36,589 bases of DNA, taken from Candidatus Kuenenia stuttgartensis (GTDB lineage Bacteria > Planctomycetota > Phycisphaerae > Phycisphaerales > SM1A02). Of this stretch, positions 26,882-36,589 are shown piece after piece; positions within the stretch are counted from its first letter, which is position 1, and each line of letters opens with the position of its first letter. Both the position numbers and the translations under genes were made by a program. The stretch is taken from assembly GCA_945902075.1 (NCBI GenBank), contig CAMDMA010000036.1, positions 1 to 36,589 on the forward strand. The letters are read 5' to 3'. The notes beneath the pieces are model-generated. The model was not told the origin of the DNA. It did not search any database and saw only the letters and a list, made by a program, of their open reading frames with translations.

Positions 26882-28248
26882 GGTGGCTTCGGTCGGTGAT
26901 CGCACTCGGAATTGCGCTTGCGCTCGGCCTCGCGGCGCGACAATTTGCCGCACCGCCCGTCGCGACAACATCCGCCCGGCGTCCGTTCGTTCCCACAAGT
27001 GTCGTGGACCCTGAACGCGTCATCGATGTGATTCTTGAGCGCGATGGCGTGCGCTATCGATTCGTTCGACGGGGTGAGTCCTGGTGGCAGACGGAGCCGA
27101 TTGAGTTTCCGGTGGATAGTTGGTCGATCCGTCAGTTTGTGATTCGGCTGCTCAAGACTGAATCGGTTCGCAGTGTTCCCGCCGATCCTGAGTCGCTTTC
27201 GCGCGCGGGACTTTCGCCGGCGGTCGCGAGCATCGAGTTGACGATCCTCAACGACGACGGTGTGTCACGCACCGTGGGCGTTGAACTCGGCAAACGCAGC
27301 CTCGCAGGACGTGCCTACGCGCGAATGTCCGATGCAAACGCAACGTTTGATGTGGTTGATGCGACCCTGCATGAGTTCGTTCTTGAACGGGACCCGAAGG
27401 AGTTTCGCAGGCGTGACATCTTCGTTGATCTCAGCGAGGTCGATCGCGTGGCGTTCAACTCGGGTGGAAACTTGACGGTGCTCGAGCGCACGGGTCGCGA
27501 CTATCGACTTTCTGCGCCTGTTCGTGCACGGGCTGATCGTGCGCAGGCAGAAGAACTTCTTGATGCGTTGCGCCGCGCACGATCCGGCGGTTTCATTGTC
27601 GATCGGCCCGCGGAGCTTGCGGTGTACGGCCTTGCGCCCGCGGCGGCAACCATCACGGTCGATGGCGCCGGAAACACGCAGACGCTTCTGATCGGTGATG
27701 CGGTGTCGATTGGCGCACAGGATCGCTTTGGAATGATGGAGGGGTCGCAGACCATCGTGCGACTTCCGGCTGCGGAGATCGCTGGAATCGTGCCGCGCGT
27801 TGAACGGCTCCTTGACGCTGTTGCGACTGGCGTTCGCCCACGCGATGTCGGTGGACTAGAGATCGTGTCTGGAGCAAATCGCGTCGTACTTCATCGGGAA
27901 GTCGAGGGTTGGACGGCACGGTTGTTCGATGTCTCACGGATCGATGGCGCCGACGCCGCTTCTAAGGAGCCGCGCGTTGTAGACACTGACGCAGTTGATC
28001 GGCTGCTCTCTGCGCTATGTGAGGCGCGTGCAGGCAGTGTCGAGATCGCGGATTTCCCAGCCGATCGCGAGGTTGCGCGCATCACCCTTCTTGGATTTGC
28101 GGGTGAGCCGATCGATACGGTTCGCGTCGCGCGGCGCGCCTCCGACGACAAACTCATTCTTGAGAATGGCGACGGCGTTTTGCGTATTCATGGCGCGATT
28201 GATCTTCCACTGGAACCGGCTGCACTTGGTCTGATGCGAACGCGGTGA
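26878..28248 (+). CDS. DUF4340 domain protein, membrane-anchored
   Basis: 456 residues from ATG 26878, which overlaps the permease stop (ATGA). An N-terminal membrane anchor (about 5-24) precedes an extracytoplasmic beta-rich protein with repeated DUF4340-type units: ILERDGVRYRFVRRGESWWQTEPIEFPVD (about 52-80), then VAFNSGGNLTVLERTGRDYRLSAPVRARAD (about 194-225), where a Trp/Tyr is followed by a Pro and an aspartate-led helix. DUF4340 genes commonly follow GldG-type genes in planctomycete and proteobacterial operons, so it is probably an accessory of the transporter. The mechanism is unknown. Confidence 0.87.
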   Translation: MRWLRSVIALGIALALGLAARQFAAPPVATTSARRPFVPTSVVDPERVIDVILERDGVRYRFVRRGESWWQTEPIEFPVDSWSIRQFVIRLLKTESVRSVPADPESLSRAGLSPAVASIELTILNDDGVSRTVGVELGKRSLAGRAYARMSDANATFDVVDATLHEFVLERDPKEFRRRDIFVDLSEVDRVAFNSGGNLTVLERTGRDYRLSAPVRARADRAQAEELLDALRRARSGGFIVDRPAELAVYGLAPAAATITVDGAGNTQTLLIGDAVSIGAQDRFGMMEGSQTIVRLPAAEIAGIVPRVERLLDAVATGVRPRDVGGLEIVSGANRVVLHREVEGWTARLFDVSRIDGADAASKEPRVVDTDAVDRLLSALCEARAGSVEIADFPADREVARITLLGFAGEPIDTVRVARRASDDKLILENGDGVLRIHGAIDLPLEPAALGLMRTR

Positions 28249-28255
28249 CGGATGT

Positions 28256-28307
28256 TGATCATGTTTTGATCATGCATTGATCATGTCTTGATCATGTTTT
28301 GATCATG
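28256..28307. repeat. Five TGATCATG copies at exact 11-bp spacing
   Basis: TGATCATG occurs at 28256, 28267, 28278, 28289 and 28300, separated by TTT, CAT, TCT and TTT. Each holds the palindrome TGATCA, so neighbouring copies can also pair as 6-bp hairpins in RNA. The array lies at the convergent end of the DUF4340 gene and ribD, and its right part encodes the last residues and stop of RibD. Confidence 0.95.
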
Positions 28308-29434
28308 TGCGTCGACTCGAGTGTGGTGGCCGCGGGTGTTGCCATCGTCCAGCGATAGTGGAGAAGCGCATCGCTTCCGCGGCGCCGGACGCTCAGTAGC
28401 CGCCCACGCGGGATGGCGGCGAGCACTTCCGGCATCAAGCCGCGCGCGCATCGACGCGCCACATCATCGGCAACGAGGATCGGCGCGACAAAAATCCACG
28501 CCTCATCAAGGAGCCGCTCGCGAATCAATCGGCCGACAAGTCCGCCGCCTGATTCCACAAGCACCGTTGAAACGCCTTCCGTTGCAAGTATGCGTAGCGC
28601 CGGCTCGATGCTGTCGCCGACACCGAGCTCGATGACGGTCACGCCAGCTTCCGCGAGCCGCCTCCGCCGTGCGACAACAGGTGCCTCTGCATCCGCGCGA
28701 ACCAAAATGGTCGTGGGCAATGTCCCGTCGACAACTTTCGAATCAAGCGGAGTTCGCGCGTCGGGATCGAAGACAACGCGTCGCTGTGGCCGAGTCGAGC
28801 GCCCATCGCGCGCGGTGAGACGCGGGTCGTCTTCAAGCACCGTCCCGATGCCGGTGAGGATTGCATCAACGCGCCCACGCTCGCGATGAACCATGCGGCG
28901 CGACCGACTACAACTGAGCCATTGGCTGTCACCGTTGGCGAGTGCGACTGCGCCGTCGATCGACTGCGCCCACTTCGCAGAAATCCACGGAAGCCCGGAG
29001 CTGATGCGTTTGAGAAATGGGAGAGTCAGTTCGTTTGACCCCGCATGCTCAAACCTCTGCACGCGAACGCCCGCCGCCGCAAGCTTCGCAGCGCCGCCTA
29101 CTGCGAGCGGATTCGGATCGGCAACGGCGAACACAACTTCAGCGATTCCTGCGGCGACCAAGGCATCGCAGCAAGGACCAGTTCTCCCACGATGTGCGCA
29201 TGGTTCGAGCGTCACAATCGCAGTTCCTCCACGCGCGCGCCCGCCAGCTGCGGCAAGCGCGGCAACCTCTGCGTGGGCCTCGCCCCACCGACGGTGGTAG
29301 CCATCGGCAATGATCTCGCCGTCCGCTGCGGTGATGACACATCCGACCATTGGATTCGGCTCCGCACCGCCGTGACCGCGCGAGGCAAGGCGCACGGCTC
29401 GATCAAGCAAAACGCGAATGCGCTCGGGAGTCAC
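28292..29434 (-). CDS. ribD: Bifunctional riboflavin biosynthesis deaminase/reductase RibD
   Basis: 380 residues. The N-terminal deaminase (about 1-145) removes the amino group from the pyrimidine formed by GTP cyclohydrolase II; its zinc site is complete (HAE near residue 54, EPCAHRGRTGPCC near 77-89). The C-terminal reductase (about 148-370) reduces the ribosyl side chain with NADPH (ISAKWAQSIDGAVA, SRRMVHRERGRVDAILTGIGTVLEDDPRLT, VLVESGG). Length is normal. The start is GTG 29434, which overlaps the stop of the upstream phosphatase gene by GTGA (29431-29434), implying translational coupling. The final six residues (STHMIKT region) come from the TGATCATG array, so the C-terminus has drifted. 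No other rib gene is in the window. Confidence 0.95.
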   Translation of the reverse strand: MTPERIRVLLDRAVRLASRGHGGAEPNPMVGCVITAADGEIIADGYHRRWGEAHAEVAALAAAGGRARGGTAIVTLEPCAHRGRTGPCCDALVAAGIAEVVFAVADPNPLAVGGAAKLAAAGVRVQRFEHAGSNELTLPFLKRISSGLPWISAKWAQSIDGAVALANGDSQWLSCSRSRRMVHRERGRVDAILTGIGTVLEDDPRLTARDGRSTRPQRRVVFDPDARTPLDSKVVDGTLPTTILVRADAEAPVVARRRRLAEAGVTVIELGVGDSIEPALRILATEGVSTVLVESGGGLVGRLIRERLLDEAWIFVAPILVADDVARRCARGLMPEVLAAIPRGRLLSVRRRGSDALLHYRWTMATPAATTLESTHMIKT

Positions 29435-34267: not shown

Positions 34268-35230
34268 TCAGACGACGCGGACGAAATCCTGCTCTCGGAT
34301 GGCTTCCGCGGCGAGAATGGGTTTCACTTCGGCGAGGTAGCGGCGACCGTCCTCGACGTAGCCGGCGGTGGGTGCAAGGCTGGGCATTCGGGCGGTAAAG
34401 AAGGCGTTCAGGCGACGCATCGACAGTTCGCGAACGAATTTGGCACCCATCGAGGCGAGGGCGACCGGGAGGTGGCGCTCCTCTGCGCCGACCTCAAACG
34501 AGAGCACCAGCCCCTCGCCAATCTCATAGGTCGAGCGTTCGCCGTCCTCCACGATGGTCCGCACGCGTGCGCCTCGAGCCACGTGCGCCTCAAGCTCGGC
34601 GGTGTAGTCGCTGCGCCCGCCCTGACGATCAATCGCGAGAAAGGTTGGTTCGTCTCCGCGAAGGAGATCGATGTTGCGCGCCGCGTCGAACACCAGCGAC
34701 ATGTTGACGCGCGCCTTGTTTCGGAGGGTCTCATAGAGTGCGTTGAAACCCGGCGCGTCAAGGGCTGCGACTCCGAAGTGTTCGAGGACGACTCCACTTT
34801 TTGCAAGGGTGTTCGCCAGCAGATTGCGCGCAATTGCGATCTCCGCCGCCGAGTGTGACACGGGCATGGACTGTGGGGTCTCGTGCCACGGGGTCGCGCT
34901 TGTGGCGCGCGGGTGAACTCCGAGTGCATTCAACAACGCACGGTCATTCTCTGGCGGCTCGCATGCCGCAAACGCAAGCACCCCGCGCTCGAGATGAGCA
35001 AGCGGCTGCTTCCCGGCACTCTTCAACTTTTTACTATCGGCGATCGCGATCCGTCGTTTTGGGTCTCGCGGCTTCCGGCAAAGGGCCGACTCGAGCAGTT
35101 TCCAGAGGTCGGGCGGCGCAGTATCCAAAAGTGCCTGCGGAGGAAACGACACGCGAAATGCGCTCGCGCCCACACAAAGCGGCCCGAGCAGGGGGCCGTA
35201 TCCCGCTTCATCGATGCCTGCGTAGATCAC
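34268..35230 (-). CDS. Enlarged RNase HII-like protein
   Basis: 320 residues, about 100 more than standard RNase HII. The N-terminus IYAGIDEAGYGPLLGPLCVGAS carries the DE pair of the active site (Asp7, Glu8 region). AIADSKKLK (about 61-69), FLAIDRQGG (about 197-205, third acidic residue) and ASMGAKFVRELSM (about 256-268) match the family motifs IDG and SIIAKVxRDxxM. At the last site the usual Asp of RD is Glu (RE). RNase HII removes ribonucleotides from DNA; whether this diverged form does so is uncertain. The start is GTG 35230, overlapping the mnmA stop by GTGA (35227-35230), so translation is coupled. Confidence 0.8.
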   Translation of the reverse strand: MIYAGIDEAGYGPLLGPLCVGASAFRVSFPPQALLDTAPPDLWKLLESALCRKPRDPKRRIAIADSKKLKSAGKQPLAHLERGVLAFAACEPPENDRALLNALGVHPRATSATPWHETPQSMPVSHSAAEIAIARNLLANTLAKSGVVLEHFGVAALDAPGFNALYETLRNKARVNMSLVFDAARNIDLLRGDEPTFLAIDRQGGRSDYTAELEAHVARGARVRTIVEDGERSTYEIGEGLVLSFEVGAEERHLPVALASMGAKFVRELSMRRLNAFFTARMPSLAPTAGYVEDGRRYLAEVKPILAAEAIREQDFVRVV

Positions 35231-36333
35231 CCCGGCAATGTAACGCGAATCCAGCCGCCACCGAGGATTCGCTGATCTTGGTCGTAGCAGACGACCGCCT
35301 GTCCAGGCGCAACGCCGGGTTCAGTCTGCGCGAAGGCAATGGAGAGCACGTCGTCGACGAGGCGCACGTGCGCGGGAATCGGCACGCCGTGGGCGCGCAC
35401 CTGCACGGTGCACTCAAGATCGGTCGCGTCGGCATACCACGTGACATCGCTTGCCTCAACGCCGCCAACACCAAGCGCGTCACGCGGACCCACGACGACG
35501 GCGTTACGCGCAGGATCTTTGCGAAGTACGTACAGCGGGATGGTTGCCGCAACGCGAATACCCCGACGTTGGCCAATGGTGAAATGTTGGTGGCCATCGT
35601 GACGACCGAGTTCGCGCCCCGACTCGTCCACGATTGAGCCTTCAGTGAACCGTTCTGGTGCACGCTTTGCGAGAAACGCAGCGTAATCGTCGGGAACGAA
35701 GCAGATCTCCTGTGAATCCGGCTTGTCAAACACCGGAAGCGCAAGTTCGCGAGCAAGTTCGCGCACCGCAGGTTTCTCCATGCCTCCAATCGGCAACATC
35801 ATTTTGGCCACCGCCGCGCGCCCAACGCCAAACAGCACGTACGACTGGTCTTTCGCTTGATCAAGACCACGCGCGATGCGCGGACCATCGTCACTCGCGG
35901 CGATGCGTGCATAGTGCCCGGTAGCGACCGCCTCGCAGCCGAGTTGCTCGGCATACTGGCGTAACTTGCCGAACTTGAGCCAGTCATTGCAGCGAACGCA
36001 CGGGTTCGGCGTGCGGCCCGCGTGATACTCCTCTTCGAAGTACGAAATAATGCGACCGAAGTCGTTTCGGAAGTTCACAACATAAAACGGGATTTCGAGC
36101 TTCGCGGCCACGAGGCGCGCGTCGGCGGCATCGTTGATCGAACAGCAGCCGTGTTGGCCGATTCGCGCGCCGGTACCGATCGTGCAGGACTCGCCATCGA
36201 TCGGTGTCTCAAGTTCCTCTCCCGGACTTCCGAGTCGCATGAAGCAACCGACGACATCATGGCCATCACGTTTGAGAAGCGCTGCGGCGACAGAGCTATC
36301 GACGCCGCCCGACATGGCAAGCAGAATTTTCAC
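35227..36333 (-). CDS. mnmA: tRNA-specific 2-thiouridylase MnmA
   Basis: 368 residues from GTG 36333, directly followed by KILLAMSGGVDSSV. This PP-loop enzyme activates U34 of Lys, Glu and Gln tRNAs with ATP and inserts sulfur for the s2U modification. The ATP site MSGGVDSSV (about 7-15), catalytic Cys in NPCVRCND (about 107-114), ATGHYARI, LDQAKDQSYVLFGV and the second catalytic Cys in SQEICFVPDD are all present, as is the C-terminal barrel (HFTIGQRRGI, LGGGWI). A longer start at 36402 would add 23 Arg-rich residues before this and is rejected. TAGACT lies seven bases before the GTG and there is no Shine-Dalgarno sequence. First gene of a coupled pair with the RNase HII-like gene. Confidence 0.95.
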   Translation of the reverse strand: MKILLAMSGGVDSSVAAALLKRDGHDVVGCFMRLGSPGEELETPIDGESCTIGTGARIGQHGCCSINDAADARLVAAKLEIPFYVVNFRNDFGRIISYFEEEYHAGRTPNPCVRCNDWLKFGKLRQYAEQLGCEAVATGHYARIAASDDGPRIARGLDQAKDQSYVLFGVGRAAVAKMMLPIGGMEKPAVRELARELALPVFDKPDSQEICFVPDDYAAFLAKRAPERFTEGSIVDESGRELGRHDGHQHFTIGQRRGIRVAATIPLYVLRKDPARNAVVVGPRDALGVGGVEASDVTWYADATDLECTVQVRAHGVPIPAHVRLVDDVLSIAFAQTEPGVAPGQAVVCYDQDQRILGGGWIRVTLPG

Positions 36334-36340
36334 CGTGCGT

Positions 36341-36346
36341 AGTCTA
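36341..36346 (-). promoter_or_regulatory. Possible -10 (TAGACT) of mnmA, leaderless-type
   Basis: TAGACT ends seven bases before the GTG start, so transcription would begin at or next to the start codon. The -35 is not recognisable. Confidence 0.35.
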
Positions 36347-36412
36347 AGCCGAGGTTGCAGACGTGTTCGTCGACAGGAGGGTGCACATAGGGGTTCTGCC
36401 AAAAAGCAAACA

Positions 36413-36429
36413 GCCCCGTTAGACGGGGC
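36413..36429 (-). terminator. Leftward intrinsic terminator beyond the 39-bp array
   Basis: GCCCCGT (36413-36419) pairs with ACGGGGC (36423-36429). Read leftward it is followed by TGTTTGCTTTTTGG (36399-36412), a reasonable U-tract; the rightward side is GTTCGC. It would end a transcript that comes from the right through the 39-bp repeats. Confidence 0.65.
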
Positions 36430-36466
36430 GTTCGCGGGAGGGAGAGGGTAAGAGAGATTATGAGAG

Positions 36467-36589
36467 CCTTCGTTGTGCGACGCGTGTTCCGGCGCGTCGC
36501 ACGTTCCTTCGTTGTGCGACGCGTGTTCCGGCGCGTCGCACGTTCCTTCGTTGTGCGACGCGTGTTCCGGCGCGTCGCACGTTCCTTCG
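36467..36589. repeat. 39-bp tandem palindromic repeats, three copies plus a partial at the edge
   Basis: Identical units start at 36467, 36506 and 36545, and a fourth begins at 36584 and is cut by the window. Each unit holds a perfect 10-bp inverted repeat, GTGCGACGCG and CGCGTCGCAC, around an 8-base loop (TGTTCCGG), separated from the next by about 11 bases (GTTCCTTCGTT). Since 39 is a multiple of three, frames stay open through the array; rightward from ATG 36460 it reads as a 13-residue cationic repeat (FVVRRVFRRVARS). No spacers of variable sequence occur, so it is not a CRISPR. Confidence 0.95.

Follow-up and report, generated by a model that had tools for sequence, protein, structure and literature searches.

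What a perfect array of hairpins is doing at the very end of a contig, and whether these hairpins were multiplied as parts of a transcript or as an indifferent repeat, is the question raised by the locus described here. The window analysed, 36,589 nucleotides in length, represents the entire contig C36 of a genome assembled to 3.31 Mb in 70 contigs, and its right end is occupied by a tandem array (36467-36589) with a period of 39 bp, 3.2 copies (123/39 = 3.15) and 100% matches as defined by TRF. Every full 39-bp unit carries a hairpin of 28 bases with perfect 10-bp arms and an 8-nt loop, so that hairpin plus 11-base linker make up the amplified unit, while the fourth copy is cut by the contig end at 36589 and retains 6 bases only. 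The first-pass annotation, made from the letters of this DNA, described a perfect array of three identical hairpin-bearing units and the start of a fourth, running off the edge beside a leftward terminator; TRF and the located hairpin and U-tract bear this out, with the correction that the palindrome is limited to the 10-bp arms and does not embrace the whole unit. The features to which the text refers are as follows (G003 is a relative of the same genus).

36467..36589, minus strand (as for fba and mnmA): array of 3.15 perfect tandem copies of a 39-bp unit, truncated by the contig end (TRF)
36475..36502, minus strand: hairpin 1, with a stem of 10 bp and, read on the fba strand, the loop CCGGAACA
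36514..36541, minus strand: hairpin 2, identical to hairpin 1
36553..36580, minus strand: hairpin 3, identical to hairpin 1
36436..36466, minus strand: linker separating the array from the terminator, rich in pyrimidines on the fba strand; G003 has a shorter linker, likewise pyrimidine-rich, in the same place
36401..36435, minus strand: putative intrinsic terminator for leftward transcription from fba, with a stem of 13 bp interrupted by one bulge and then five U (sequence pattern and G003 alignment)
36341..36346, minus strand: TAGACT, possible -10 element, 7 nt ahead of the mnmA start codon
35227..36333, minus strand: mnmA, coding for tRNA 2-thiouridine(34) synthase and following the terminator

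The array and the probable gene on its right side

The array is far beyond chance. In a sample of 437 kb, composed of the window and 400 kb of the same genome, 88 arrays reached the cut-off TRF score of 50 versus 3, 2, and 0 in three dinucleotide shuffles, and the score of 246 obtained here is the second highest among the 88 (the top one being 416). Among the arrays listed for 442 kb (22 sequences of this genome), the sole other one composed of hairpins with a stem of at least 8 bp was L165:7591-7666, located inside a 962-codon open frame. The search for the stem unit that the first-pass annotation had proposed returned a single locus: with up to 3 mismatches allowed, the stem-loop pattern has 5 matches in its own genome, all at the ends of C36 and of another contig, C6, and no copies in 60 relatives. 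The idea of a protein-titrating array, also advanced there, gains no support from this distribution. Rfam families gave 0 matches above the gathering threshold in the window, L008 and L020, plasmid and phage collections were without match, and no tRNA genes were detected within the window.

Other repeats are present in the same contig. An array of 13 copies of a 9-bp unit, CCGAGCAAG, at 222-339 overlaps an open frame at 3-356 on the plus strand, and an 11-bp unit repeated 4.9 times at 28255-28308 overlaps the ribD frame (28292-29434, minus strand) at its 3′ end and adjoins an open frame that converges on ribD and ends at 28248. Both ends of the contig lie in tandem arrays, of an 18-bp unit at 1-81 and of the 39-bp unit at 36467-36589, and at least 3 of 17 sampled contig starts bear an array in their first 550 bases (L156:102-141, L165:46-133, and L175:274-550). 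Tandem repeats may thus be a cause of breaks in this assembly.

Extension of the locus to the right, together with counting of the units, led to C6, whose extreme end shares 112 bases at 97% with the window end, including most of the unique linker. Past this shared flank C6 contains two units 92% alike, then a spacer, and then fba, the gene for class I fructose-bisphosphate aldolase, reading toward the array. Of the relatives of this aldolase that are named to phylum or class, the closest are MAGs of Planctomycetota, Planctomycetia, and Phycisphaerae (L040, L042-L046), with many other phyla lower among 80 rows. Because of the shared C6 flank and the order of fba and mnmA in relatives (see below), we infer that C36 and C6 very probably represent one locus, meeting at the array, and that the terminator would be the one ending fba. 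Copy number differs between the two contigs, C6 having two units that diverge in letters and C36 at least three identical ones, which reflects either varying copy number or strain difference, or assembly collapse.

Downstream of the array, the terminator is composed of a core stem (36413-36429), a stem extended to 36406-36435 with one bulge, and five U at 36405-36401, i.e., a GC-rich stem directly followed by a U run, with a predicted energy of -21.0 kcal/mol. By pattern alone such terminator-like sites are about as frequent as chance predicts (2 found versus 1.8 expected in 1.6 kb), and the call is supported by the matching site of G003, which aligns with it in the same place before mnmA, rather than by the pattern. 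The pattern written from both genomes gave one match in each of them and none in 39 others, so this terminator is not widespread in the genus.

The TAGACT hexamer is one that we take to be a possible -10 element of mnmA, which would then have a leaderless start. TANACT-like hexamers, resembling a leaderless mnmA promoter, stand 6-7 nt ahead of the mnmA start in this and several related species (L010, L016, L020, L021, L023, and L041); TANNNT overlaps the fba stop codon in L012, L014, and L022, and no TANACT-like hexamer was seen in L011 or L019. On the other side of mnmA, the minus-strand frame 34268-35230 matches RNase HII, with the best stretch limited to residues 4-24, and inserted sequence may interrupt the domain.

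The fba-mnmA spacer in relatives

In 13 of 13 loci of the genus that contain both genes, fba lies immediately before mnmA in the same orientation, at distances of 12-286 bases; fba is cut by a contig end in two of them and mnmA matched partly in one, and the genome studied here (contig break) and G014 (mnmA fragment only) were left out of this count. In G006 mnmA was not found. The same order with a 12-base gap occurs in G031 from another genus, but it is not general beyond: the genes lie on opposite strands in L035, mnmA is on the other side in L031 and L038, and many loci outside the genus have no fba near mnmA. The array very probably sits, as the comparison suggests, in the fba-mnmA spacer.

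None of the 13 same-genus relatives possesses the array, and in 12 of them the hairpin is lacking as well, their spacers being 12-103 bases long; the hairpin is therefore dispensable. The same spacer bears an 11-mer repeated 6.3 times in G007 and a 12-mer repeated 3.2 times in G015, both unrelated to the 39-bp unit, and, as far as these sequences tell, it is a place expanding repeatedly by tandem duplication.

The exception is G003, where the spacer of 286 bases contains one hairpin with the identical loop CCGGAACA and 11 of 12 stem positions paired, though most letters of the stem are different. Among 20000 dinucleotide shuffles of this spacer the loop, chosen after having been seen, appeared in 102, at least 9 of 12 pairs were formed in 2, and 11 pairs in 0. 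Seven of the 10 core stem pairs are changed on both sides with pairing kept, a level reached by 1 of 500 shuffles in an alignment of 3 rows, two from this genome, which is in effect one comparison of two species. An alternative alignment of G003 with indels in the stem can also be drawn.

A 12-taxon concatenated tree did not resolve the relationship of G003 and the genome studied here (G000), single-gene trees did not place the two, and forcing them as sisters was 12.3 log units worse and not rejected (p-AU 0.099). A single origin of the hairpin may therefore imply several losses.

An RNA model, R1, was built from G000 and G003 sequences, so its matches to them are not independent evidence; beyond these two its best E was 0.0172 among 16 genus genomes and, under stricter filters, 0.0038 and 0.0046 among 181 family genomes. 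In ten inspected loci with weaker matches, neither fba nor mnmA was found within about 1.5 kb. The two best of the weak matches come from two genomes of one other genus, have near-identical letters and lie in long open frames, a trait that does not discriminate since the G003 site also falls within a 542-codon frame on the other strand. The bare 8-mer CCGGAACA is not enriched: searched with S-ended flanks in 16 genus genomes, it gave 0-14 matches per genome, mostly at or below the backward control, in a list judged by eye and unscored, where G003 stood out by its clear stem and the ends of our own array did not fit the pattern. As DNA, the C6 spacer matched 7 of 15 other genus genomes over merely 23-46 bases (E > 6e-4); one of them, located in G007 away from fba-mnmA, overlaps the hairpin sequence (85% over 33 bases).

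These comparisons bear on the strongest competing explanation, that of a purely neutral repeat in which the G003 loop is leftover homology, template switching corrected quasi-palindromes into perfect arms, and the hairpin has no function at all. Tandem repeats common in the genome and arising again and again in this very spacer, as well as the lack of the element in most relatives, agree with it. An 8-nt loop kept over a stem with most pairs replaced on both sides nevertheless exceeds plain homology, with the reservation that two species are compared and the indel alignment is possible, and we regard total neutrality as tentative, appreciable in probability though rather unlikely.

Folding, strand, and resemblance to known elements

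Predicted hairpin energies amount to -21.1, -20.5, and -23.7 kcal/mol on the other strand and to -18.5, -13.4, and -20.6 kcal/mol on the fba strand, where the common unit takes the value of -18.5. In the outer unit of C6, next to fba, an A.C mismatch weakens the stem on the fba strand (-13.4 versus -18.5 kcal/mol), whereas the other strand forms a G.U pair at this position. The array together with the terminator folds better than shuffles (z -4.97), and in the minimum-energy fold of the array neighboring units are paired together rather than forming a string of separate hairpins. As to the leftward transcript itself, which would cross the array, the proposal of the first-pass annotation is strengthened in part: the right-hand gene, very probably fba, is oriented into the array, and one relative has a matching terminator at the same place before mnmA. 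Among the functional labels suggested, a 3′-UTR element appears to be the best, judging by the orientation of fba and the position of the terminator.

Whether such an element is maintained by selection is another matter. Palindromes of the REP/BIME type, tagged by GTAG or CGTC, are described in PMC3733652 as intergenic, 20-40 bp long, with proposed roles in termination and mRNA stabilization, and the unit considered here resembles them as a palindrome of the same size class between genes. REPs are dispersed in high copy, unlike this unit confined to one locus, and the CGTC families of Table 1 have 4-5-base loops versus 8 here (PMC3733652). An unpaired GTAG or CGTC tag was not found at the foot of the stem, the inter-stem bases being GTTCCTTCGTT on the plus strand; with 5 matches at the C36 and C6 ends only, dispersed copies are absent too, and membership in a REP family was rejected. 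A selected array analogous in function, with hairpins kept for protection of the fba mRNA 3′ end or as a backup of the terminator, could account for the location between fba and its terminator, the strong stems, the favorable folding, and the retention of loop and pairing in G003. It has to face the relatives devoid of array and, with one exception, of hairpin, the unequal copy number within the assembly, the weakened outer unit, and stems that are better on the opposite strand, and we consider it doubtful. Folding predictions of the latter kind give no favor to selection on the fba-strand RNA and speak against strong selection.

Less probable is an assembly artefact, whereby perfect copies were produced by an assembler walking a repeat cycle. 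The array does lie at a contig end, with only two units on C6, but the latter contig independently holds tandem copies with different letters, so tandem copies are real, and 123 bases would fit one short read or long k-mer. A CRISPR array, similar in having repeated palindromic units, is rejected as the identical units are contiguous and without unique spacers.

Three further proposals ascribe more specific roles to the units. It is very improbable that the loop CCGGAACA, on a stem free to vary, serves as an RNA recognition signal specific to this lineage at the fba 3′ end, where a protein or small RNA would bind it, and that its multiplication gave an array tuning central carbon flux by titrating or recruiting this partner. 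Hardly tenable is a role of the hairpins in rightward transcription, where they would act like terminators and keep antisense transcripts out of fba: that strand does give the more stable stems, a G.U pair preserves the stem of the variant unit there, and both C6 units score terminator-like, but these 2 sites compare with 1.4 expected by chance, the tail is a weak, interrupted U-run, and no rightward gene or nearby promoter-like site was seen. A coding repeat, starting from a plus-strand ATG (36460-36462) behind a purine-rich stretch and reading FVVRRVFRRVARS repeats in its array part, is next to negligible: its frame is open for 94 codons on C6 and 2 of the 3 changes that distinguish the C6 units are synonymous there, but none of the six frames of the unit contains a stop, no Pfam family was found up to E 1, no match exists in 15 same-genus genomes and those elsewhere are weak (best E 0.0016, 60 genomes), G003 is without ATG at the matching place, and the sole plus-strand promoter-like match in 35000-36589 (36022-36051) is about 400 bases off.

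A proposed path from a single hairpin to a minisatellite

Near-identical head-to-tail units of about 10-100 bp are one mark of a minisatellite, which the array bears with 39 bp × 3.15 at 100%; a second mark is copy number varying between individuals, and for the two units of C6 against at least three of C36 either strain difference or assembly collapse may account. The array shares with bacterial intergenic minisatellites (VNTR) the near-perfect units of tens of bases, the intergenic location, and the assembly break, its copy number may likewise be unstable, and it differs from them in that the unit is a strong hairpin, of which another species has a single counterpart at the equivalent position. 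The plain minisatellite, which the first-pass annotation had named as the simple alternative, fits the tandem copies in view of the unequal counts on C36 and C6, the weakened outer C6 stem, the absence of arrays from the 13 relatives, and the 12 without hairpin.

The explanation that we favor, and hold to be reasonably probable, is an old hairpin of the fba 3′ end recently expanded into a minisatellite of unstable length, with little or no effect of the extra copies. The fba transcript would run leftward into the spacer and end at the intrinsic terminator ahead of mnmA. The hairpin with the loop CCGGAACA before this terminator was probably single-copy in the common ancestor with G003, and in this species it would have been recently amplified, together with the 11-base linker, via replication slippage or unequal recombination, either being assisted by the palindrome. 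Array length is probably neutral, and extra copies most likely have little or no effect; an mRNA-protecting role of the hairpins is possible, at most in shielding fba mRNA from 3′ exonucleases. Overall, the array is a real, tidy, and mostly ordinary minisatellite that most likely grew from an fba 3′-end hairpin. It explains the break of C36, which very likely belongs together with C6, and it offers a plausible step from the single-copy 3′-end hairpin of G003 to the tandem hairpin array of this species at one syntenic place, and thus a modest example of the way in which palindromic minisatellites may originate beside terminators.
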